A stretch of 64,000 nucleotides of DNA from Tetmemena sp. SeJ-2015 (lineage: Eukaryota > Ciliophora > Spirotrichea > Sporadotrichida > Oxytrichidae): the NCBI GenBank assembly GCA_027382625.1, contig JAJKFJ010022255.1, forward strand, positions 124,001-188,000. Direction: 5' to 3'. The notes beneath the pieces were generated by a model. It did not search any database. It had not been told where the DNA came from and saw only the letters and a program-made list of their open reading frames with translations. The translations under genes and the position numbers were made by a program. Numbering within the stretch: the first letter of the stretch is position 1; each line of letters begins with the position of its first letter. Below are positions 3,064-25,198 of the stretch, piece after piece.

Positions 3064-6000
3064 CCTTACTATAAGTGAGAGCAGAGTTATTTATAGGTGT
3101 CTAACTTGAACAGACAGTTCTTGTTCAGAGCTAACAATGTCGGCCACTCCAAGTCTAAGGTTGCTTGCGAAATCGCTCACGACATGAACAAGGCTCTTCA
3201 CGTGATGGACTACTAGACCAGAGTAGGATCAGACACTGAGGAAGTCTTTAACGACAAGTTCTGGGAGACCCTTGACTTCGTTGTGAACGCAGTGACAACA
3301 TCAAAGCAAGACTCTATGTGGACTCCAGATGCGTCTGGTACGGAAAGCCTCTCCTCGAGTCAGGAACTCTTGGAACCAAAGCCAACTCCCAAATGATCAT
3401 CCCCCACAAGACTCAGTGCTATGGAGACTCTCAGGATCCCCCTGAAGAAGGTATCCCTATGTGCACATTTATAAAGAAATAATTGTTTTATTTAACATTG
3501 AGAAACTTCCCCAACCAGATCGAGCACTCATTAATAATTTAAAATTAGAGCTAAAGAATAATTTAAATTTCTTTATGAATTTTTAAGATACATCAAAGCT
3601 GTTTTAGCAATGGCACTTTTTCTATCATATCTTTAAGTCATTGTATGATAAAAGGACAAATTCAACTTCTTGAGTGCAAATAGAGAATTTCATTTCAAAA
3701 TTTATCTGAATTAGCTCTTAATAAATTTAGCACATTTGGAATATATTTAAAGCTTTATTATGCATTTTATTTTTTAGACTGTATCGAGTGGGGCAGAGAC
3801 TTGTTCAGCAAGCTCTTCTACGATATCCCTAACGACACCTCTTCCTACATCGCAAAGCCCCAGCAGTACTTGTTCATGCTCAGGCAAAACACCACCGTCT
3901 CAGGAGTCAAGAGCGCCATGGAGGAGATCAAGAAGATTGTTGACCTCAAGAAGTCAGCTGACTTCTCTCAGTGCGTTGACGTTGCCAGAAAACACTTCGA
4001 GGAACTCTTCAATCATCAAATCGCAAACCTCATCCACATGTTCCCTCATGATCACTTGGACAAGGACGGCCAGCCATTCTGGTCAGGCCCCAAGAGAGCT
4101 CCCTCTCCTATCGCTTTCGACCCCAACGAACCACTCCATGTTACCTTCGTGACTGCCGCTGCCAACCTCATCGCTTACACTCTTGGCATCACTCAGAACA
4201 GAGATGAGTAGCAAATTGCAGCCAAAGCTGCAAGTGTTGAAGTCCCAGCCTTCGTTCCCAAAACTATGAGAGTTGAGCTTCCAGGCCAAGCTCCTGATCA
4301 AAACCAGCCACCTGCCGAGGCTGCCCCAGAGGACGAGGCAGTTCTTGCTCAGCTTCTTGAGGAACTGAAAGTCGAGAACATCGGAGTGCAGTCAGCTGAC
4401 TTCTTCGCTGCTGAGTTTGAGAAGGATGATGACACTAACTTCCACATCGACTTCATACACGCAGCTGCTAACCTAAGAGCCCTCAACTACAAAATCCCAG
4501 TCTGCACTCACCAGAAGACTAAGATGATTGCTAGATATATAGACAAGGTAACGAAGAATTGATATTATTCTGTTCAAGTTGGAAACTTCGATGTTGTCGT
4601 TATCAGTAACTGCACTCTGCCCTCAGCTGAGCAACCAATTCCCATAAGAGCAAAGGCCTTGATCAACTCGCATCCAAGAGCTCCAGCTCCACCATGAAAG
4701 TATTAACCTTCAAGAGTTTCTCCTGAATCTCCTGGCCATATACTGCGATCTAATCATCGTAAACTTGGTGTAGTAGTTTGTAGACTTTATAAGATCTTTA
4801 TAATTTATCTTCCACCCTGGGGAGCTCTGTTTACGTTTGTCTCTTCCTTTGGTAGAGTCTCAAAGATATCATAGTGAAGCCACTGCTTGAGGGGAGAGTA
4901 CTTGCCAGTGTACTTGACAATTTCCTGAGCAATAATACCTCCGAAGAAAGCTGCCATTGGTGAAATTCCTGAAGCTGAGAATCTTGCCACGTTCGTAACA
5001 ACCTTCTCATCAAGTTCCTCAACAATCAATAAGAATATAGCATGAACGATATTTCTCATTTTATTGATTCTAAGTGATGCCCTCTGTCTTTGAGTTCTCT
5101 TCATTGATTCTCTTGGCATGAGCGATCACAGCTGCGATATCCTCTTCATTGTTTGCTGGCTTTCTGCCAGTTGCTTTTTGGAACTCCCACAAAGCGACGA
5201 AGCCAAGGTGGAGTTGCTCTGAGCGTCCCCAGAATCTCAAGTCAGGAGTCTCGAGCATACCATACTGAGAAGAAGCAATGGGGTTGTGCAGAGATTGCTT
5301 CAAGCTGTGGTAAGATACCTTCTTTGGCACCTTGATGTTGAAATATTCTACATTATATAAATAGTTCTCAACAAGTCCTTGTCTGACATAAGGTGAGAAT
5401 CCAGTGCCGTCTACCTTCACCTTGAAGCTGAATCCATCGATGATTTCTACTTCAGTAGGAGGGAGGTCGTTGAGTTGAGTCATACCTTCAACCTCTTTGA
5501 ATGCAACATAGTCGCCATCTTGGAATTTGTGTCTCTTATCTTCATGGACAGTCACGATTACTGGATTTGTCTGAGTAGCATTCACCACAATGAAAGACTT
5601 AGTCTCTTCTCCATCAGGGTCAGAGATAATGAACTCATTGCCGAAATCAGAGAATGCAAAGCCAGATGGGCCATGATTGCCTGTGAAGAGGAATCCAACA
5701 TTGCGAGCGCGGCAGAACTCATCAGCTTCGATGATCTTGTCGATGTTTTCGAAGACTTCAGTGTAGACAACGACGCTGTAGTTTGCGTGATCGTTCAATT
5801 CAAGAGAGTTAAGAGAATTAACGCGCACATACTGGTTTAGCTCTTGGAGCTTGCCGATGGAAGCTGCAGCTCTGGTGGTGGCACCGACATCGCTCTCTCT
5901 AAGATAGAAGTTGGCAGAGAGATCTCCCCATTGCACAGTGGTTGGGTCATAGATGTCAACGAGAGCAGGTCCTGCCAAGATCAAGTTCTTAGCGATTTCA

Positions 6001-6131
6001 ACTCCGAGTCCTCTGCAACCAACGATCAAGACTCTGAGCTTGATCAGCTTGCCCATGGTCTCCATGCCAAAGGTTCCGATTTGTCTGGAATACAAGTTAG
6101 TATCGATCTGTACGTCAGATTGTTCAACCAT
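2510..6131. CDS. UBA1: scrambled germline UBA1, ubiquitin-activating enzyme E1
   Basis: E1 activates ubiquitin with ATP and passes it to E2 enzymes through a catalytic Cys thioester. Every part of the roughly 1,000-residue protein is present but not colinear. The N-terminal pieces A, B and C run down the minus strand from 6131 to 4569; the middle pieces D, D2 and E run up the plus strand from 3103 to 4532; the C-terminal piece F returns to the minus strand from 3063 to 2510. The joins C-D and E-F share 12- and 11-bp pointers and restore the frame exactly. Landmarks are [35 protein letters not shown] followed by [10 protein letters not shown] (catalytic Cys), FWSGPKRAP and the [12 protein letters not shown] segment. 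Single-base breaks in C and D look like sequencing deletions of G. Confidence 0.93.
3103..3469 (+). other. UBA1: UBA1 MDS D (inverted; ends beside the catalytic Cys)
   Basis: Starts with pointer AACTTGAACAGA (3103-3114) and encodes [19 protein letters not shown] through [20 protein letters not shown] and [11 protein letters not shown]. One missing G after GCAGTG is required for frame. It ends in pointer ACATT (3465-3469). The catalytic Cys codon TGC (3462-3464) abuts this pointer. Confidence 0.9.
3495..3528 (+). other. UBA1: UBA1 micro-MDS D2 (34 bp)
   Basis: A 34-bp coding island encoding [10 protein letters not shown], the conserved residues right after the E1 catalytic Cys. It is bounded by ACATT (3495-3499, matching 3465-3469) and ACT (3526-3528, matching 3778-3780). 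Joining gives [19 protein letters not shown] in frame. The flanking IESs are about 25 bp and 250 bp. Confidence 0.88.
3778..4532 (+). other. UBA1: UBA1 MDS E (catalytic Cys domain)
   Basis: Encodes [31 protein letters not shown], the [14 protein letters not shown] segment, [20 protein letters not shown] and THQKTKMIA. It ends in pointer AGATGATTGCT (4522-4532), whose reverse complement is at 3053-3063 at the start of block F. The codons after the pointer drop out of family similarity, as expected for IES. Confidence 0.9.
4569..4761 (-). other. UBA1: UBA1 MDS C
   Basis: Encodes [18 protein letters not shown], the second nucleotide-binding glycine motif [20 protein letters not shown], and [13 protein letters not shown]. 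Two one-base deletions are needed to keep the frame, both resolved by adding one G to a G run. The block ends in pointer AACTTGAACAGA (plus-strand complement at 4569-4580), from which the gene continues on the opposite strand. Confidence 0.85.
4806..5026 (-). other. UBA1: UBA1 MDS B
   Basis: Encodes [18 protein letters not shown] through [15 protein letters not shown] and [14 protein letters not shown] to NRAPQGGR. It follows block A in protein order on the same strand. A TA pointer (4806-4807 and 4760-4761) joins it to block C, giving GGRYDDQIAVYG across a 46-bp IES. Confidence 0.85.
5077..6131 (-). other. UBA1: UBA1 MDS A (N-terminal adenylation half)
   Basis: Encodes about the first 350 residues from the start Met at 6131 ([10 protein letters not shown]). 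It includes the first Rossmann segment [19 protein letters not shown] and the domain up to [12 protein letters not shown]. This is one uninterrupted block with no IES. Its join to block B is not certain; an AT repeat near 5077 and 5024 would give [11 protein letters not shown]. Confidence 0.9.
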
Positions 6132-6298
6132 TTTAGATGTTGTTTGTGTGTTTGTTGGAAAGAAATGAAAGTAGTATCTTTTTAGAAATTAATAAGTTAT
6201 ATCTTTCTGAGTAATCCTGCCTTTAAAAGTCTGAAGAAGTTGGTTAAGGACCAATATAATTAATAGTCGACGACAACTCAACTGTTCTCAGCAGCAAA

Positions 6299-15929: not shown

Positions 15930-18718
15930 TATTCACTCTTCTTTCTAGAGACGGGGGCTCCTAGAAATTGAGAAAGACAGCTGTGGATTTTATGGTGCAG
16001 TCTCTCCAAGATCGTGTGAGTGATTTGATAGAGTAAAGCACCAAGGTGCAAACTCAAGATGGGATGAACACTGGCATCAATTTTCAGAACACTTTCAAGC
16101 GCATGAAGTCGATGAATGAAGTTCATAAACATTAGATAAGATATGGAACAGTTGATTGATGATGATGACGAGGATGAAGAACTTGAGAAATAGAAAAAGG
16201 GGAAATCGAAGGGATAAGGTTTTCTAGAAGACTCAGATGATCAGGAGGATAGGTTATTATTTTAAGGTTAATTTTAATAACTCAGTGTCTGCAAATGAAT
16301 AGGGACAAAAGTACTCTGAGAAGGATGTCAAGGATGTTTTGTTCCCCAGAGATTACTCTCGCCTCTATCTAGAAAACAAACCACTCAAGGGTCCAAAGGG
16401 GAAGTAAACCAAGCAAGGCTAACCCAAGCCGTCAATTCTAGAAGAGCTTGCTTACTTTTAGAGATAGATTCTTAGGCGAGCTAACAGTGATCCACTCTTT
16501 TATCCAAACAAACTTTTTCTTCCTATAAATTTAAGTAAACTCGGAGATGATCTTGTAAGAACAGAGAGACAGAATAACATATGAGGTGGTTCAAAAGCTC
16601 AAAGATGATTTGTAAAAGCTTCTCTTCATTAAGCTAAGGCCATCCCACACTTACAAGGAGAATATAACTATCGGGTAGATCTAGGAGATCACTAAGCTTG
16701 AGAGTTTCATAAACGATAATCTTCAAGTAGAACAAGTGGTATCGATTAGTGACTTCATCAGGGCCATCATTCAGTTAGAAAGCTTAATTATTGATTACTA
16801 TAAGCCTTTACTAGCAGCCATTTCAAACAGGATAGAAAGATAACAAGGCAGCCAAGCAGCTATCAATTAAGCTGCTTGAAGATTTGATCGATCAACTCTA
16901 GCAATCAGTAATCAATAACCTCATCAAAGTATAATAAGTTTGAGTGTATGAATTTATTACCTAGTTTGCAACTGTCTGATAGAAATTGACCAACTTAAGA
17001 TAAACCCTTTTGAGATGCAAGATGAGGCTTTAGAAGAGTAGGAAGAAGGTTAAAGATTCAATAGATTCTAGTCTGGAGAGGAGGATTAGTCTAACTTTCT
17101 GTCTTTTACAACTCTGGGAGACTTGAGTTAATTCTTCACTAAAACTTGGCATAAAGGTAGATGGATTCAGCTACCAATCTAAAATTGAATATCTTATTAT
17201 AAAATCTTCATTTATGGTTTCTTCAATTCTTTGAGTATGGAGCTGAATCGACTTCTTCAAATACTGTAAGGGAAGTTGCAAATAGATTTCAAGCAGGTGG
17301 GTCTGTTGATGAGTGAATGCTGTTCGCTTTTAGTGAAGGAGCTAATTGCTAAGCTAAATGAAAAAATGCATGCACACAGGGATGAGTTGGAGAGGCAGTG
17401 GCATGACTACGATCAGAATTTTGAGCGTATTTACTTGACTGAGAGTGTTAAAAGCAACAGAGACAAAGAGATAGAGGAGTTGGAGCAAAAGGAGCAGGAG
17501 CTAATTATGATGACTCAATCTGCCTGCAGTGAGGTGCTTATCATGGTAAATGGGTTGGAGCAGATCTAAAAGTATGGGATGCTGCTCATTAAAGAGCAGA
17601 TCAATAGATTCCCCAGAGATAATACTTAACCTGATAAAAAGTTATCTAAGAATCAAAATTCTAAAGGGTAGTAGTTGGGTCAGGAACTGAACTCTCAAGA
17701 TCTACTTTTCATGAGTATTGAATCGTTAGCCAACTCTGAAATTGAGAAAGCTGTATCGGAGGTTTATCAATTTCTTAAGGAGATCCTGATGGACCATCTT
17801 ATTAAAAAGACTCTGGCTGATAAAGGTGAATTCAAAATTTATCTTGATACATTTATATATGAAAAAGAGAAGATAGAAATTGAACTTGAAGGGCAAGAGC
17901 AGTTGTTTGATCTGGATCTGCTAGAGTAGATTTATAATGAAAGCAGTATGCAGCCTTTCAAAGAGGCAAGAGGATATGTATGGGAGCTAATATCTTTCCT
18001 ACAGTATTCTTGTCTTGAAGTGCACTCAGTCTTTCCCTCTTTAAACTATAGAGAAGATTAAACTCAATTAATCAGCATCTCGCAACTAGTGTATTTGATT
18101 AAAGTTTACGGTGACTCTTTGCAGCATCTGTAAACTTACCAGATGATTCTACAGAGTTTGTATGTGCGTGCACTGGAGACTGTGAGCAACTAGTTTTCAA
18201 TAGACTTGCAAGACTAGCGAATGACTTTGATAGCTTAGCAAAACAACTCCTCCAATCACAGTTCAGGAGGCAATGGGGGCTTCAAATCTAAGGACAACTG
18301 GAGTAACTAGGTGATTGTTAGTGAGTTGAAACAAAGACTCTTTGAATTAGAACTTTTGAGTGATGTTTTGATGAGTAATGTTGAGTTTGCAGCTTAGCTG
18401 GAGCCAGTGCTGGAAGATGCGAGAAATGTACTGTTTGCACAGCTCAAGAACCACATCATGCTAGTTTTTAGAGTATTTATCATTGGTAAAAATGGAATTA
18501 CTGAGGCGATTGATGAAGATGAAGAAGATGTGATGAATGATAATCCCGACTTGGATGAGGATGAAGTCCGCTAGAAGACAATCAAGCAGAGAAAGACCAT
18601 GGGCATGGTTTAAGAAAGAGACCTACTTTCTCAAGAAGAGATAGAGTGCAAAAAGAAAGCCATTAGAGATATCAAGTTCAAAAGTGAGTTCAATTTGGGA
18701 GGCATACTCAGCTTTTGA
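15930..18718 (+). CDS. EXOC2: SEC5/EXOC2-like exocyst subunit, 3' part (plus-strand MDSs)
   Basis: Begins with pointer TATTCACTCTT (15930-15940), identical to the end of the minus-strand part. Joining gives SYLEILFTLLSRDGGSQKL in frame. It then encodes a long helical protein: TAVDFMVQSLQDRVSDLIE, an acidic/Lys patch (DDDDEDEELEKQKKGK), VSISDFIRAIIQLESLIIDY, LGDLSQFFTKTWHK, GLLMSECCSLLVKELIAKL and EARGYVWELISFLQYSCLEV, ending GGILSF then TGA 18716-18718. The order and the helix-rich C-terminal domain fit the conserved C-terminal two thirds of SEC5. Introns or IESs interrupt it near 16260, 16930 and 17160-17220, and there are several one-base breaks. Assignment rests mainly on the N-terminal motif and the pointer join. 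Confidence 0.68.
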
Positions 18719-18777
18719 TTACATTTTAAACTTTCCACAACTCTAAACATCTTCTCAGCTCTTCTTTATTTGGTATG

Positions 18778-19141
18778 TCCTAGATCCTTGCCTCTAGGGT
18801 CTTGAGTTCCTGGAGTCTTGCCTCATGCTGATATTCCTTGACTTGCTTATCCTCTTCGATGTACTTGAGGAACTCGTTTATCCTGTCTCTGAAGAGAGCG
18901 AACTTTCTTGGAGTTGCCTTCGTTCCAGTCTACTATCTTGTCATCCACCTACTCCAATTTTTAGTCCACGCTCTCTAGTTTGAGGAACTTCTCCTGCTCT
19001 ATGTTAAGATGGAGGTCGTTGAGTCTCTCAGTGATCTTAGTGACTCTGTCGATGTACTTGGAGGCGAAAGGCAGAGGACATCTTCTACGTGAGTGGGTTG
19101 AGTTAGTGGAGGTTGGCGGCGTATTATGAAGAACTAGCCAT
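18778..19141 (-). CDS. SF-assemblin, MDS 1 (N-terminal)
   Basis: SF-assemblin forms the striated microtubule-associated (rootlet) fibres at basal bodies. This block begins near Met 19141 and has a Pro/Ser/Thr/Arg head (TPPTSTNSTHSRRRCPLP). The rod follows as FASKYIDRVTKITERLNDL, QEKFLKLESVDQKLEQVDD and LFRDRINEFLKYIEE, ending KTLEARI. Two one-base breaks (after the start region and in an A run before FALFRDR) look like sequencing errors. It ends in a 12-bp pointer (AAGGATCTAGGA; complement 18778-18789) shared with MDS 2 at 21015-21026. The next part of the protein is therefore 2.2 kb away, upstream on the same strand. Confidence 0.87.
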
Positions 19142-19268
19142 TGTTAAGGGATGGAATTTAAAATATATTATCTCCACCTATTTGAAATTTACTGTTAAAC
19201 CAACTACCAACTTATCTATTGAGTGGCATTTGGAACGAGAAATAATAATTTGAAATAAATTAAAGAGA

Positions 19269-19830
19269 ATGGCCGACAACGAAAACGACGCAGCAGCTGC
19301 AGGTGAAGAGGGAGAAGACAAGACCGAGTACAAGATGCTGGACGAGGACATAAAGTACGAGATCAACGACTGCTTCGACATCTTCGATAAGGACAAGGAC
19401 AACTAGATTTCGTATGTGGAGTTGGGCACCTTGCTCAGGTGGCTGAAGTTCAATCCAACTGAGAAGGAGATGAAAGAGTTCGCTTAGGAGTTTGACTAGA
19501 ACTCCTCCAACCTCATCAACAGGTTCAATAGAGTTGAATGAATATTTGTTTGCTTGTGTTTAAGGAAGACAGTGATGAAGATTGTGGACAGGAAGCTGCA
19601 AGACACTGACACCATAGATGAACTGATTGAAGCCATGAAGCTGTTTGACAACGACAAGGATGGGAAGCTGTTAGTACCAGAGCTGAGGTGGGCTATGACC
19701 AAGCTGGGAGACCCCATGGACGAGGGCATGGTGGACGAGATGATAAAGGAAGTAGACGCTGATAACGATGGACTGGTAGACATAATTGAATTTGCTAAGG
19801 TGTGCTTCAACATCAAAGGAGAAATGAATT
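19269..19830 (+). CDS. calmodulin-like EF-hand protein (3' end uncertain)
   Basis: Start ATG 19269 (MADNENDAAAAGEEGED), then EF-hand loops DKDKDNQISYVE (Q encoded by TAG), an apparently degenerate second site, DNDKDGKLLVPE and DADNDGLVDIIE. About 170 residues, a calcium-sensor size. A 42-nt GT-AG intron (about 19519-19560) restores frame into RKTVMKIVDRKLQDTDTID. Similarity ends around VCFNIKGE near 19825. The continuing frame is AT-rich and not family-like, so the true last codons may lie in another segment. The coding sequence just downstream belongs to V-ATPase subunit G, not to this gene. Confidence 0.8.
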
Positions 19831-19990
19831 TCTACCCCTCCTTCTTAAGAACAACTATGATAATTTTTAGGCTTATTTTGTGGAATGAAAGAGTATTATT
19901 CATCTTTAAGGAAGTAGTTGGTGTATTTTATAAATTCATAACTGACTAAATGTTTAGTGATGCTGCTATGGTATGGATGGATATTGTGTG

Positions 19991-20097
19991 AATAGGACTT
20001 TGAGCAAAACAAGAGACAGGTGATTAAGATGTTGTTGGACCAGATCTTGGTGGTCGACTTGTCAGTGCCCAAGGTGGTGAAGCAGCAGTACGATTGA
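19991..20097 (+). CDS. VMA10: V-ATPase subunit G, MDS 2 (C-terminal)
   Basis: Starts with pointer AATAGGACTT (19991-20000), identical to the end of MDS 1. Joining gives IKLIKQDFEQNKRQVIKM in frame, then LLDQILVVDLSVPKVVKQQ and YD, TGA 20095-20097. The total is about 115 residues, the normal length for subunit G. The second segment precedes the first on the chromosome, a simple permutation on one strand. Confidence 0.86.
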
Positions 20098-20245
20098 GCT
20101 GCTGAGTTAACTTGCGTGTGGTAGAGAGGGAATGATATTGAATGTTTATAGGAATGCCATAGCATAAGTTAAAGGATTAAATATCTATAATTTATTTGTT
20201 CTCAAACTTAATATAGGATGAATACGAAAGGATGATCGTCGATTG
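20098..20245. other. spacer
   Basis: AT-rich DNA after the V-ATPase G stop. No coding or RNA signal was recognised. Confidence 0.3.
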
Positions 20246-20665
20246 TAAAAAAAAAGAGATTAAAATAACTTCTAAGACCTTATTAATTATTACTTTTCTT
20301 TAAATCTGATTATTAATACTATTTCTTTAATTTCGATTCTGTAATGGAGGTCTTACAGTTATATTTGACGATCAGTCCTTTGACTTTTCCACCACCTCGG
20401 CGGGCGTCCGTTCTATCGATCCATGCCATTTTCATTCCCATTTCAGATTCCCATGTTCAATTTAGTTTCGGGATAATTTAAGATTTTCGGGTATCTTATA
20501 GATGAATTTTAGGATATCGCACAGGACTTATTGGATTATTATCTAATTGCGTAATTTATTTTAATTTATGATTTCGAAGGGATTCGAACCCAATTCCGAT
20601 TATTCTAATTCCCGACCGTTGCCAGTAGGCCACCCGGACTCCTCCAACGCCCTCCCTCTCCACTT
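20246..20665 (-). repeat. tRNA-derived SINE-like sequence (Pol III type promoter)
   Basis: On the minus strand, near 20645-20565, there is an A-box-like TGGCCTACTGG and a perfect B-box GGTTCGAATCC at a tRNA-like spacing. A D-stem can pair (GGCC with GGTC), but acceptor and anticodon stems do not, so this is not a functional tRNA. About 330 bp downstream a run of nine T (20247-20255 as A on the plus strand) could terminate Pol III. The interior contains an unusually GC-rich patch for this region (around 20395-20430). A SINE or Pol III noncoding RNA fits; a decayed tRNA is the alternative. Confidence 0.4.
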
Positions 20666-20834
20666 TATTTTATACTTCTTCCCCCCGATTTTCCATTCGT
20701 ATTTTAGCCATAATAAAATTACAATATTTTATCTATCATTCCCACAACTCTCTCTTTTAATCGCTTATTAAATTATCAATTATACTTATGCACAGATCTA
20801 ATAATTAGTTTATCTCCTTGGATTATATGGGCAC

Positions 20835-20850
20835 TCACTGCACTTGAGTG
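20835..20850 (-). CDS. SF-assemblin, MDS 4 (last codons and stop)
   Basis: Pointer CACTCAAGTGCA (complement 20839-20850) is followed by G then TGA (20835-20837). Joining to MDS 3 gives LNSTQVQ and stop, the expected C-terminal position. Only the last codons, the stop and the 3' flank come from this segment. The protein order is 1-2-3-4, while minus-strand order from high to low coordinate is 3-2-4-1. Confidence 0.8.
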
Positions 20851-20890
20851 TGTAAATAGATAAATGAGATTTGTATGATATTTTTGTTTG

Positions 20891-21026
20891 ACTCTCAAAT
20901 CTGTTGCGAGACTCTTTGAGCACATCCCCCTTGAGGCCTGCGAATCTGTCCTCCACAATTGCAATTAGTCTTTTCTCCATATCTCTCCTTGCTGCATTCT
21001 CCTGTTCAAATCTCTCCTAGATCCTT
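20891..21026 (-). CDS. SF-assemblin, MDS 2
   Basis: Bounded by pointers AAGGATCTAGGA (complement 21015-21026) and TTTGAGAGT (complement 20891-20899). It encodes RIQERFEQENAARRDMEKR then LIAIVEDRFAGLKGDVLKES, the coiled-coil rod centre. Joining to MDS 1 gives TLEARIQERFEQEN in frame. On the minus strand it precedes MDS 1 although it comes later in the protein. Confidence 0.9.
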
Positions 21027-21156
21027 CAAGGCAATAAAAGCACTTCAGATACACTCTCAGTAGGATATTGCATGTGGAGTGTCAGAATAAATTAATAAGA
21101 AAAGAGAGAGAGGTAAAGAGCGCATTAATATATTTACTATAAATTATTAGCAAGAA

Positions 21157-21407
21157 ATGGAAGGAAGCGTCAAGAATCTCCTCGAAGCCGAAAAGGAGTC
21201 CCAAGCTATCATTGAAGCTGCTATGAAGCAGAAGACCCAGAGAGTCGCAGACGCCAAACTCTACGCAGAACAAGAAATCAACAAACACAGAAAGGAATAC
21301 GAAGAGAGATTCATCGTGGAGTCTGCTAGAAAGCAGGCTGAAAATGCTGCCCTCACTGAGTACGATGAAAAGGCTGAGGAAGATATCAAATTGATTAAAT
21401 AGGACTT
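21157..21407 (+). CDS. VMA10: V-ATPase subunit G, MDS 1 (N-terminal)
   Basis: Subunit G is part of the peripheral stalk of the proton-pumping V-ATPase. This block starts at ATG 21157 (MEGSVKNLLEAEKESQ) and has the family's charged single helix: IIEAAMKQKTQRVADAKLYA, EQEINKHRKEYEERF and DIKLIK. After pointer AATAGGACTT (21398-21407) the frame runs antisense through SF-assemblin and no longer resembles subunit G. The remainder is found 1.3 kb upstream. Confidence 0.88.
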
Positions 21408-21442
21408 ACCTACATTTCATTCTCAGTCGATCTATTGTTGCA

Positions 21443-21774
21443 TGCACTTGAGTGGAGTTAAGTTTATTGCAGGTATCTTCCAGAAGGGAGAGTAGGGTTT
21501 CTTCATTCTCCTCTCTGTCTCTCTTTTCAGTCTCGATTTCAGTCTTGATTTTATTGACCATGTCCTTCAGCATTTCAAGAATTGCTTCTTCAGTTTCCTC
21601 TCTTGCCCTGCGTTCGTTGGCCACCAATTCCGAAAGTCTCTCCGCCTCTTCATCAATTTTAGCCTTGACCTAAACATCACTCTCTTCTCTCTCGACTGTC
21701 TCTGACTTAATCACATCTTGCAGTTTGGGGAAGTCATTTTCAAGGCATTATTTCAAGTGTTCCACACTCTCAAA
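21443..21774 (-). CDS. SF-assemblin, MDS 3
   Basis: Starts at pointer TTTGAGAGT (complement 21766-21774); joining to MDS 2 gives NRFESVEHLKQCLENDFPKL in frame. The block encodes the rest of the rod, including ERRAREETEEAILEMLKDMV and REENEETLLSLLEDTCNKLN, the classic SF-assemblin/giardin end. It stops at a 12-bp pointer (CACTCAAGTGCA; complement 21443-21454) shared with MDS 4. It lies between V-ATPase G MDS 1 and PEX1. Confidence 0.9.
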
Positions 21775-21843
21775 CTCTACTTATAATAAGTGAATTAAAA
21801 GTATAAGTGAGGAGAGAGAAGTGATAGTGATAATTTATTAAAA

Positions 21844-24800
21844 ATGAGATACAGGCTTAAACTTATGAAGAGTATAAAGAACAACTTCATCAATCTGCCC
21901 AAGCAGTCTCCATTACGTCAGTCAGTTTCAACTCGACTGTTCTCTCACGACACTAACAACTGTACTCCCATAAAAGTTCAAATCTTCTCCTCAGATTACT
22001 CTAATGTACTTACTTGTATTCTTTTTTAATTTATCTTAGGCCACATTTTACTTTGGATTTGCGAATGGTACGTCAGAAGACAACAACACAGTAGAAATAA
22101 GTGAAGAAGTAGGTAATCTGCTCAATCTCTAGGATGGAGATTTAGTGCAGTGCAGCATTGAGTACAGTTATTAGAAGCTGAAGGAGGTGGAGCTAGAGCC
22201 TCTAACGCCTGAAGACTTTGAAATAATAGAGAGGAACAGTGAGTGGGTGGAGGACTCACTTCTCAACCAAATAGGAGTGTTCTACCATAACTAACTATTC
22301 GTCATCTTCGTCACCTACTAGCCCAACTAGGTCACCACTATCAATCTCAGATGCAAGATTTAGAGTCAAGTCAGCCAAAGAAACCAGGACAGCAATGAAT
22401 AAACTGACAGTGCTAAGTGCTTCTATCTCACTGTCGACAGTGAACTCCACATCTAGCCTAAAGTAAGGACTCCATAAAAGCTGGATGGAAAGGGGAAAGA
22501 AGAGGATAAAAAAGAAGAGGAGTTTGCAAAGTAGCAGAACAATAAATTGCCTTAATAAAGAGAGATTCTCTTATCAAGATTCAAGCATGATCCTACTATC
22601 AAGAACTTTGATGAGATATTTATAGACCAGAGCTATGTGCAGCATTTCAAAGAAGACCAAATAGTTAAGGTAGAAATTCAAAGAGCAAGCAAAATTACAA
22701 GTCTAGAACTGTCTGACTATCAAGTCTTGAAGTAGCAGAAGCAAGCAGATATTCTTCGACAGACTTAATATTCAGAGCTATTCTTAAAAGTAAAGTTTAG
22801 AGAGAGTGAGAGTTCAGGCTTTTGCTCTATAAATCAAACCCTATTTGAGACTCAATACTAGGATTTTGGAAAAATGAAACTATAAATGGCTAATTCCTCA
22901 GCCTCATTGAATAATGATCAAGAAACTCTACTTGCAATAATCAAGACAAATATTGATATACTTAAAAGTGGAATCAGACTTTATGGAGAAACTTAGAAAA
23001 ATGCTACATTCAAACTTATGAAAGACCTAATCTGCAATTACCTAGCTGAGGAGTCACGGAAGAGAAAATTCTTATTGATTAACGATAACCAGACACTCCT
23101 TTTGAATGCAGCTAATCTCAGACAAGGATTGAAGATTGTTAAATCAGCGGGAGGATAGGACGATGAAAATCTAGTTTATAATGACTTGTAAAGTAAGTTA
23201 ACTTTCTTATAGTTTAAAGAAATTTTTAGACCAACTTAAGTAAATTTTGAAGAAAGACAGAAGTTTATATCTCCATGTCAAGTTCTAAATCGATAGAGCA
23301 AGTAGACAACTTATTCAGAATCTTAGAGCAGAGAAATATATCAAGATCCTTGAGAATTTAGACTGCAGTACTAAGATTTAATTAGCATTAGATCCAATAT
23401 AAAGTGATGAAAACTAAGTTGATTAAAGTTCAAATTTGGACTCTCTAGAAAAACTGATATCCAAGAAACTATTCTCATCAATCACTGAACAAATTGAAAA
23501 TAGAATGTTCAGAGATAGAGGAGCCAACAAATCTTGCTTAATATATGGGCCATAGTCAGTTGGAAAGACTTATCTCTGCAAGAATCTACTTAAGGAATTT
23601 TCTAAGCTACTTTAAAATGTTCACGTCTAGTATATTGATTGCAATAAGCTTCAAGTAAATATATCCTCAACAGAAGGAATCGATATAGCTCTGGAATTTC
23701 TAAAATTGAAGTTGAATTTCTCAAGTCAGTTGCAACCAAGCTTAGTAATCCTAGATAACTTAAACGCCATCTGCCAAGTAATTAGCAATGATGAATAGCA
23801 AAATCCTGTTGATTAAGTCAAATCCTTGAAGTTCAGCAAGCTCATTCTAGATTTCATTAAGCAGAGCTTAGGGGTTAAGGTAATTGGAATAGCAAGGCAT
23901 TTCTCTTCTTTGAATAGCAAACTACTAGACGTTGGTTACTTTGATAATATGATAGAGATGAAGCCTCCCACCAAAGAGTAGAGATATTCCTTAATCTAGG
24001 AAGTTTTAGCTCCACCAGAATGCTAAACCAAGGAAATATTGCTACAAAAGCAAGCTTAAATGACAGAATACTTTGTAGCCAAAGACATTTCACATGTCTT
24101 TGCACGAATAAGCCACCTCCTAATTGGAATAAATCATTAGGAGTACGAGAAAATATTTGAAGAGCAAGTTAATCAATACAAGAAAGCTTGTTTCCCGTAA
24201 ACTTAGAGTATCTCTGAAGGTGTTCCAGATTGGGATTTAGAAATAGGAGGCTTGAAAGAAATTAAAGAGCAAGTAGAGGAAATATTTGGAGTTACTCAAA
24301 GATACTCAATTTACTTTAAAGGTCAAAAGATAAATCAAGGGTTGCTGCTCTATGGCCCACCAGGCTGTGGAAAAACTTACTTAGCCGGAGCAATTGCTAA
24401 AAAATTCAACATTAACTTTATAAGTGTAAAGGGACCAGAGCTTTTGGATAAGTACATAGGAGCTAGTGAATAAAATGTGAGGGATTTATTTGACAGAGCG
24501 AATGCTTCAAAGCCTTCAATCTTGTTCTTTGACGAATTTGATTCACTCGTACCTAGAAGAGGTTCAGGAACTACTTCAGTCACTGACAGGATAGTAAATC
24601 AGTTTCTCTGCTATCTCGATGGAGTAGAAGGCAGAGATGGAATATTTGTTATGGCGGCAACCTCTCGACCAGACTTAGTTGATGTGGCACTTTTGAGGCC
24701 AGGGAGAATAGATAAGTCAGTATATTTTTTAATATATTGTGGCTTCCCCAATTTTGAAGAACGCTCGGAGATAATAAAAGTCTATCTGTCCAAATTCCAA

Positions 24801-25198
24801 TTCAAATCCTTATACAGCGATAGGGCCTAGCATGAGGAATTTATTTCGACACTAGCCAGAAAGAGTGAAAATTTCACCTCCGCTGATATCAAAGGTCTCA
24901 TTCAAAATGCTTTTTACTATATTTTTGAAAGCTTAACTTGCCAAAATGAGTAGGGTTCTTGATGAGTGCCATAGTTCAAACACTGAACCTGACTTTAGCA
25001 TAAATGAGGATGATATCATGGAGAATCTGAGACAAAAATATATTTGCTATAAATTATAAGGTTTCAATGAGACTATTTGTTAAAGGCATCAATGACTAGG
25101 AAAGAATGAGATTCGAATCGATATATAGGAAATATCAAGACAAGGGAGGTAATCCACAGAAAGAGGACTTAAAGAAATAAAAGCAAATACTTTAATGA
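21844..25198 (+). CDS. PEX1: PEX1-like peroxisomal AAA ATPase
   Basis: PEX1 with PEX6 extracts the import receptor PEX5 from the peroxisome membrane. The N-domain matches: [16 protein letters not shown], a [20 protein letters not shown] segment and LLNQIGVF. The first AAA module is degenerate ([19 protein letters not shown]). The second is canonical: [55 protein letters not shown] and [20 protein letters not shown]. The C-terminal helix [16 protein letters not shown] ends at TGA 25196-25198. Short introns (for example near 22006-22039 and 25054-25078) and some one-base breaks interrupt it. It is colinear, unlike its neighbours. It converges with the tetraspanin-like gene, 62 bp away. Confidence 0.9.

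Follow-up and report, generated by a model that had tools for sequence, protein, structure and literature searches.

The window analysed in this study is a stretch of 64,000 nucleotides from Tetmemena sp. SeJ-2015 (assembly GCA_027382625.1, contig JAJKFJ010022255.1, positions 124,001-188,000 of the forward strand), and all coordinates given here are positions within it. The locus described below holds the pieces of two genes on opposite strands, encoding an SF-assemblin and the V-ATPase subunit G (V-G), together with an EF-hand gene and a MITE insert (Table 1). Sequences were translated with TAA and TAG read as glutamine and TGA as stop. The gene pieces at this locus are genuinely scrambled, with a non-linear germline order and matching pointers at their boundaries. 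The four pointers claimed in an earlier, sequence-only reading of this DNA (12, 9 and 12 bp for SF-assemblin and 10 bp for V-G) all proved to be exact repeats. These lengths fit the scrambled class of pointers, for which PMC6765146 gives an average of 11 bp, the non-scrambled class averaging 5 bp. Moreover, none of the 12 columns of the p1 copy at 18778-18789 varied among three haplotypes, compared with 7 of 28 columns just outside it.

Table 1. Features of the scrambled locus; letters and numbers in remarks give the place of a piece in the proposed single chromosome.
Feature	Positions	Strand	Remarks
Pointer p1 TCCTAGATCCTT	18778-18789 and 21015-21026		12 bp, exact repeat
Pointer p2 ACTCTCAAA	20891-20899 and 21766-21774		9 bp, exact repeat
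Pointer p3 TGCACTTGAGTG	20839-20850 and 21443-21454		12 bp, exact repeat
Pointer q AATAGGACTT	19991-20000 and 21398-21407		10 bp, exact repeat; contains an in-frame TAG (Gln codon)
SF-assemblin MDS1	18778..19141	-	ATG at 19141, p1 at end; clean ORF in C635 and C4368; E (5) if one chromosome
SF-assemblin MDS2	20891..21026	-	p1 at 21015-21026, p2 at 20891-20899; D (4) if one chromosome
SF-assemblin MDS3	21443..21774	-	p2 at 21766-21774, p3 at 21443-21454; C (3) if one chromosome
SF-assemblin MDS4	20835..20850	-	pointer p3 and TGA stop
V-G MDS1	21157..21407	+	ATG at 21157, q at 21398-21407; upstream end after 21026; A (1) if one chromosome
V-G MDS2	19991..20097	+	pointer q through TGA stop
Proposed single MDS B (2)	19991..20850		would hold the two genes' 3' ends tail to tail, split by the insert 20213-20709; suggested by the joint pointer order
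EF-hand (calmodulin-like) gene	19269..19827	+	PF13499, 6.1e-22
MITE insert	20213..20709		497 bp, TA-flanked, between the two 3' ends; in C3057 and C4368, not in C635

Joining the two V-G pieces at q produced a clean frame of 115 amino acids, which matched PF03179 over residues 3-101 (2.4e-17; 63.8 bits, cut-off 28.6) and aligned end to end and without gaps with all 115 residues of Stylonychia lemnae V-G at 75% identity. Piece 1 alone scored 44.7 bits, and piece 2 alone gave no PF03179 match. The two haplotype differences in MDS2 (20001 and 20055) were both third-position and synonymous, the phase having been counted by hand. For SF-assemblin, the full joined sequence reached 33.1 bits against PF06705 (4.8e-8; cut-off 30.6), a partial sequence remained under the cut-off at 30.4 bits, and none of pieces 1, 2 and 3 attained it when scanned singly. 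In addition, the relative P0001 was colinear across p1 and p2, and SF-assemblin relatives stopped at the same place as MDS4 (e.g., ...NSTQAP and ...NSTQTQ). It had been stated that all four joins restore the frame; every join is indeed in frame, but the window copy of SF-assemblin MDS1 is not itself open, as it carries two frameshifting 1-bp insertions (18903 and 19070), neither of which occurs in the allelic contigs compared with the window (C635 and C4368, which complete the three haplotypes). Variation among these haplotypes points to coding constraint: 8 of the 120 codons of MDS1 varied synonymously and 2 nonsynonymously, in line with the synonymous differences in V-G MDS2.

The earlier view that such joins are unlikely by chance was borne out by dinucleotide shuffles of the 25 bp on either side of each junction, in which a frame-keeping run at least as long as the pointer appeared in 1 (p1), 5 (p2), 0 (p3) and 2 (q) of 2000 shuffles per junction. 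Furthermore, a blind test of 2,488 joins (1,244 per strand) at repeats of at least 7 bp within 18400-22100 was scored with profiles built from 8 of the 18 V-G and 10 of the 25 SF-assemblin proteins found. Ranked by best single-domain score, the q join outscored all others for V-G (180.1 bits, against 139.0 for the runner-up and 127.7 unjoined), as did the p2 join for SF-assemblin (211.9, against 152.8 for the runner-up and 146.1 unjoined by whole-sequence score). The single-domain score was preferred to the whole-sequence score, under which several other joins ranked over these two, since a construct with a repeated piece then scores double. With MDS1 taken from the allelic contig C4368, the p1 join was the best of 63 (134.2; next 100.0; colinear 78.9), and the order 1-2-3-4 was the best of 24 orders of the SF-assemblin pieces (291.9; next 208.8 after 4-1-2-3), the near tie with 4-1-2-3 (291.8) arising because MDS4 contributes little beyond the stop. 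The exact repeats, the domain scores and the ranking of joins thus support the identities of both genes, the order of their pieces and their mutual interleaving on opposite strands.

The whole coding sequence of the EF-hand gene falls between SF-assemblin MDS1 and V-G MDS2, and the gene may form an embedded ('Russian doll') locus, in which an IES of one chromosome encloses every MDS of a second. The coding sequence has a single interruption of 42 bp (19521-19562) with an AGG direct repeat, alternatively a GT..AG intron. In the window it carries one extra base at 19818, and the stop at 19825-19827 belongs to the insertion-free frame. The sequence-only reading had overlooked this gene, the polymorphic MITE and the two frameshifts in SF-assemblin MDS1. 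The insert at 20213-20709 resembles ciliate IESs and MITEs of the TA-flanked Tc1/mariner type. It shares their TA flanks, and copies of its family have TATAG termini and, in some cases, a long inverted repeat. It differs in being polymorphic for presence between haplotypes at a scrambled locus, and its excision is presumed. A search of 20150-20850 against Rfam at E up to 0.1 gave nothing, and DNA relatives sought among viral contigs and genome contigs were not found. ARAGORN detected no tRNA gene in the 64-kb window; with a lowered threshold it listed five low-scoring candidates around the MITE insert.

Colinear mapping elsewhere in the germline, which the sequence-only reading had set against its own proposal, was sought in the 146-Mb germline assembly. 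Of the four V-G matches, two were the window pieces and two were alleles of the second piece, one per allelic contig, and no colinear V-G copy was found. With P0001 as query, 11 SF-assemblin matches were obtained; six were the locus or its alleles, and the five on other contigs (24-55% identity to P0001) are read as paralogues. A DNA search with 20835-21780 gave a full match in the window's own contig only, and five of its six matches were short (80-159 bp, 70-79%) and lay on other contigs. Within the 146-Mb assembly, the locus is the only source seen for V-G and for its own SF-assemblin. A search for a telomere pattern gave weak evidence that the assembly is germline-only, with 21 exact matches in 3 contigs but 28 matches for the reversed control.

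It is highly improbable that the arrangement is an artefact, either a misassembly or a decayed copy with intact genes elsewhere. The right half was found in a single contig, three 1-bp insertions fall within coding sequence of the window copy (the two in SF-assemblin MDS1 and that in the EF-hand gene), both allelic contigs stop at the base aligned to 20834, and the window differs from both in 7 of 20 columns at 20817-20834. However, the matches in 146 Mb include no further V-G copy, and the order SF-assemblin MDS1, EF-hand, V-G MDS2 recurs in the two allelic contigs, where MDS1 is open. From the MITE boundary onwards, the two allelic contigs are identical over exactly their last 127 bp. Such identity would arise by construction if haplotypes were merged by an assembly graph with k=127, so the common end is not necessarily a misjoin. 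For the same reason, the conservation of 20710-20834 was not retained as a sign that the interval is kept in the macronucleus.

Read along the plus strand, the pointers of both genes follow the order 1-q-3-2-1-q-3-2, which is a perfect repeat word (1q32 1q32) of the odd-even kind with a common orientation. Of 72 interleaved placements of both V-G pieces, 4 yield a repeat word with common orientation. A joint repeat word together with one fitting orientation suggests one chromosome rather than two, and one convergent chromosome explains the word at least as well as two chromosomes do. We lean towards a reading in which this genuine scrambled locus, in the micronuclear (germline) genome of a hypotrich-like ciliate, most likely gives one convergent two-gene nanochromosome. 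This would be a tail-to-tail molecule of about 1.55-1.65 kb with five MDSs: V-G piece 1 (A), V-G piece 2 continuous with SF-assemblin piece 4 (B; 19991-20850 minus the MITE), and SF-assemblin pieces 3, 2 and 1 (C, D and E). The germline order would be E-B-D-A-C (5-2-4-1-3) in a single orientation, which would need no further pointer and is odd-even rotated by one, a kind attributed to local duplication and then loss of alternate pieces. During macronuclear development, pieces would be excised and joined at the four shared pointers, with cutting and RNA-template guidance inferred by analogy with Oxytricha. It counts against this reading that the MITE in piece B of two of the three haplotypes would have to be excised. 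Two pairwise swaps suffice to assemble A-B-C-D-E on one linear molecule. With assumed upstream ends, that of E being taken as at or before about 19268, the predicted chromosome measures 1574 bp (maximum 1660 bp), telomeres excluded. Contigs of relatives measure 1576 bp (V-G, P0026), 1562 bp and 1564 bp (SF-assemblin, P0051 and P0052), but these three were picked out of widely differing lengths (the 13 best SF-assemblin fragments, P0044-P0056, cover 508-3920 bp), and the agreement of 1562-1576 bp may be chance. It also counts against one chromosome that the 18 listed V-G proteins have no longest-contig size in common with the 25 and 73 proteins of the two SF-assemblin lists.

The claim of two interleaved genes therefore stands as to scrambling, identities, order and pointers, whereas the independence of two genes or chromosomes is not established, owing to the joint repeat word. 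Two one-gene nanochromosomes (SF-assemblin from four MDSs and V-G from two) with interleaved germline pieces are a less probable, though substantial, alternative, in which the joint word would be chance or the product of one duplication covering two neighbouring loci. The pieces, order and pointers would be as found, and interleaved scrambled chromosomes are documented for Oxytricha in PMC5940158. At 621 bp, the S. lemnae V-G contig has room for V-G alone; it counts against one chromosome and suits one-gene chromosomes, as do the 914-970 bp contigs of several SF-assemblin relatives (e.g., P0047, P0050 and P0053). Unless both loci were duplicated together, however, the 4-in-72 coincidence of placement is needed, and under strictly intramolecular recombination whichever gene was resolved first would strand the pieces of the other on two molecules. 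That one duplication-and-loss process wove two opposite-strand genes, destined for independent chromosomes, into a single word appears rather unlikely. Were it true, and assembly strictly intramolecular, neither gene could be completed without such stranding, and p1 would have to recombine in concert with q.

A head-to-head two-gene chromosome, its two MDS1s joined upstream by a fifth pointer AATAAATTAA (19254-19263 and 21086-21095), is very unlikely. This 10-bp direct repeat occurs in both upstream regions, would give a rotated odd-even order (4-6-1-3-5-2) and was reached in 2 of 100 shuffles; yet a larger run gave a repeat of at least 10 bp in 34 of 600 shuffled pairs, 3 of the 36 pairs formed by flanking stretches of the locus had a 10-bp direct match, and the pointer would stop 5 bp short of the EF-hand ATG. 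It was rejected as unremarkable given the shuffle rates.

Scrambled, interleaved and odd-even loci are already well documented in Oxytricha. Braun et al. (2018; PMC5940158) count 387 MAC contigs as interleaved only and 47 as embedded and interleaved, of 15,811. As in those Oxytricha trifallax loci, the pieces of one gene here lie in the gaps of the other with short direct-repeat pointers; the present locus is smaller (six coding pieces and four pointers), and its pointers, taken over both genes, make up a single repeat word, a pattern suggestive of one chromosome rather than two. The interleaving holds at the level of gene pieces and may not extend to two MAC contigs. Odd-even scrambled genes have been attributed to local duplication and decay, with residual MDS-IES similarity weaker in older loci, according to Feng et al. 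(2022; PMC9797194), who cite Gao et al. (2015). The locus shares with the genes described there a common orientation, alternation of every pointer pair and a doubled word; it differs in that the pattern spans two opposite-strand genes, is rotated and shows no detected duplication relic, MDSs compared with exchanged or neighbouring IES stretches staying at shuffle level in 7 of 7 comparisons (p 0.09 to 0.98). Such similarity is expected of young odd-even loci and not required, and the failure to detect it counts against the proposed chromosome. Feng et al. also report an Oxytricha chromosome in which an 18-bp pointer bridges two genes that in Tetmemena lie on separate one-gene chromosomes. That case shows that related germline loci can give a joint chromosome or two, the same ambiguity as here, whereas the link proposed here is a continuous piece (19991-20850) with a polymorphic MITE. 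A literature search, largely of papers outside subscription, found none on this locus or on SF-assemblin/V-ATPase scrambling.

In conclusion, the locus is a compact, fully mapped case (3 kb, four pointers) in which apparent interleaving can be tested against a simpler scrambled two-gene chromosome. The polymorphic TA-flanked MITE may show eliminated sequence shortly after its origin. If the single convergent chromosome is true, some loci classed as interleaved purely from gene models would turn out to be ordinary odd-even chromosomes.

In this study, all four pointers claimed in a sequence-only reading, namely p1, p2 and p3 of SF-assemblin and q of V-ATPase G (V-G), were found in place as exact direct repeats. 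With TAA and TAG translated as glutamine and TGA as stop, joining the V-G pieces at AATAGGACTT gave a 115-aa protein with a single, terminal stop, which matched PF03179 at 2.4e-17 and aligned without gaps to the closest named V-G, the 115-aa protein of Stylonychia lemnae (75%; Halteria, 49%), which places the organism among the hypotrichs or close to them; piece 1 by itself (44.7 bits) also exceeded the PF03179 cut-off. The pointer contains an in-frame TAG, and the V-G proteins of two relatives, P0028 and P0029, terminate exactly ahead of that glutamine, which is presumably what a standard-code gene caller would produce. The SF-assemblin of the relative P0001 was colinear across joins 1 and 2, and join 3 yielded ...NSTQVQ-stop, where close relatives also terminate (...NSTQAP, ...NATQVQQ, ...NSTQTQ). 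All pieces joined scored above the PF06705 cut-off; pieces 1, 2 and 3 singly fell below it.

Features of the interleaved locus
Feature	Position	Strand	Length	Remark
SF-assemblin piece 1 (MDS1)	19141-18778	-		joined to piece 2 at 12 bp (p1)
SF-assemblin piece 2	21026-20891	-		joined to piece 3 at 9 bp (p2)
SF-assemblin piece 3	21774-21443	-		joined to piece 4 at 12 bp (p3)
SF-assemblin piece 4 (MDS4)	20850-20835	-		joined at p3
V-G piece 1	21157-21407	+		carries pointer AATAGGACTT
V-G piece 2	19991-20097	+		carries same pointer AATAGGACTT
EF-hand gene	19269-19827	+		between SF-assemblin MDS1 and V-G piece 2
MITE insert	20213-20709		497 bp	TA-flanked, TATAG termini

That such frame-keeping joins are improbable by chance, as also claimed, was borne out by shuffled sequences, in which frame-keeping repeats as long as each pointer appeared in 1/2000 (p1), 5/2000 (p2), 0/2000 (p3) and 2/2000 (q). 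Repeats of at least 7 bp within 18400-22100 allow 2,488 joins; ranked blind by best single-domain score, the q join was top for V-G and the p2 join for SF-assemblin, each far above the runner-up. Whole-sequence scores were rejected for this ranking, as they are distorted when a construct contains one piece twice. With MDS1 taken from the allelic contig C4368, the p1 join ranked first of 63, and the order 1-2-3-4 was top of 24 orders, tied by 4-1-2-3 because MDS4 contributes little beyond the stop. The region contains three direct repeats of 12 bp, two of which are p1 and p3.

Along the plus strand, the pointers run p1 q p3 p2 p1 q p3 p2, a single repeat word spanning two genes; the V-G pieces can be interleaved with the SF-assemblin layout in 72 ways, and 4 of these produce the joint word with a common orientation. 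V-G ends at 20097 and SF-assemblin at 20835, with their 3' ends facing each other across 737 bp, or 240 bp without the MITE. If these ends shared one MDS, there would be five MDSs in the order 5-2-4-1-3, all oriented alike, and the four pointers would cover every junction. A swap at p3/p2 and then at p1/q would bring V-G piece 1 (A), V-G piece 2 with SF-assemblin piece 4 (B) and SF-assemblin pieces 3, 2 and 1 (C, D, E) into line as A-B-C-D-E on one molecule. By contrast, with recombination confined to single molecules, resolving q alone would strand the SF-assemblin pieces on two molecules, and finishing SF-assemblin first would strand those of V-G.

The predicted single chromosome measures about 1574 bp (upstream ends assumed) and at most 1660 bp, telomeres excluded. 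Relatives' contigs of 1576 bp (V-G) and of 1562 and 1564 bp (SF-assemblin) lie near this size, although they were chosen from a wide length range and none is known to carry both genes. Against this likeness stand the S. lemnae V-G contig of only 621 bp and contigs of 914-970 bp in several SF-assemblin relatives, sizes that would fit one gene per chromosome. We therefore lean towards one chromosome carrying both genes and regard two as a somewhat less probable arrangement.

The basis observed here comprises pointers, piece order, restored frames and colinear relatives. By analogy with Oxytricha, where maternal RNA templates are reported to direct excision and joining in macronuclear development (PMC6765146; PMC5940158), the pieces would be excised and joined under similar guidance. 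The pointer lengths (12, 9, 12 and 10 bp) suit the scrambled class, reported to average 11 bp (PMC6765146). Local duplication followed by alternate loss, a proposed origin of such patterns (PMC9797194), is plausible here from the pattern; residual similarity left by duplication was sought at the locus and none was found. Among 15,811 Oxytricha macronuclear contigs, 1,847 were described as embedded only, 387 as interleaved only and 47 as both (PMC5940158), and a two-gene Oxytricha chromosome corresponds to two in Tetmemena (PMC9797194). The kind of locus is thus already known, and this is a small new example with a neat joint pointer pattern.

The assembly comprises 146 Mb in 5,213 contigs (window, C3057:124001-188000). 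We take it as germline because its long contigs carry genes split into pieces and the assembly matches of V-G and SF-assemblin included no small chromosome capped by telomeres; the exact C4A4 pattern (21 matches, 3 contigs) did not exceed its reversed control (28) and so says little on assembly type. A colinear germline copy of V-G, which would count against scrambling, was absent from its four assembly matches (two here, one each in the allelic contigs C635 and C4368). The SF-assemblin query P0001 gave 11: four at the locus, two allelic and five on other contigs (24-55% identity to P0001), which we take to be probable paralogues.

Both allelic contigs carry the left part of the locus in the same order, up to the base aligned with 20834; the right part was matched in C3057 only. 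MDS1 is open in both. The window copy carries three 1-bp insertions, two in MDS1 (18903 and 19070) and one in the EF-hand gene (19818), all of which we take as putative assembly errors of C3057. Of 120 codons in MDS1, 8 varied synonymously and 2 nonsynonymously among alleles; in the EF-hand gene the variable codons (3/84 and 14/89) were synonymous throughout. Within p1, 0/12 columns varied versus 7/28 in the highly divergent sequence just outside. The terminal 127 bases of C635 and C4368, beginning at the MITE boundary, are identical, pointing to a graph assembly with k=127. At 20817-20834 the window departs from both, which agree, in 7/20 columns; C3057 may be poorly resolved here.

Elsewhere in the window, ubiquitin-activating enzyme E1 domains lie on opposite strands (SCCH, 3579-4562, plus; ThiF, FCCH and four-helix bundle, 5022-6287, minus), so the window likely holds another scrambled gene, E1, in which part is inverted. 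A PEX1-like gene with PEX-1N and AAA domains (21869-24959, plus) starts just right of SF-assemblin piece 3 and, being read in two overlapping frames, is probably interrupted. GC per kb is about 32-47% over the first 28 kb and about 16-37% at 28000-61000, which would fit a stretch that is mostly germline-limited. The EF-hand gene is broken by 42 bp at 19521-19562, readable as an IES (AGG pointer) or a GT..AG intron and highly divergent across haplotypes (15/49 columns, 19521-19569).

The MITE is missing from C635, where the empty site is clean, and is thus polymorphic, present in two haplotypes and not the third. Related copies (L015-L017) bear a long terminal inverted repeat, and the family has at least 37 more matches beyond the three allelic contigs, a lower bound from 40 scored of 151 candidates. 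This polymorphic insert may be new eliminated sequence.
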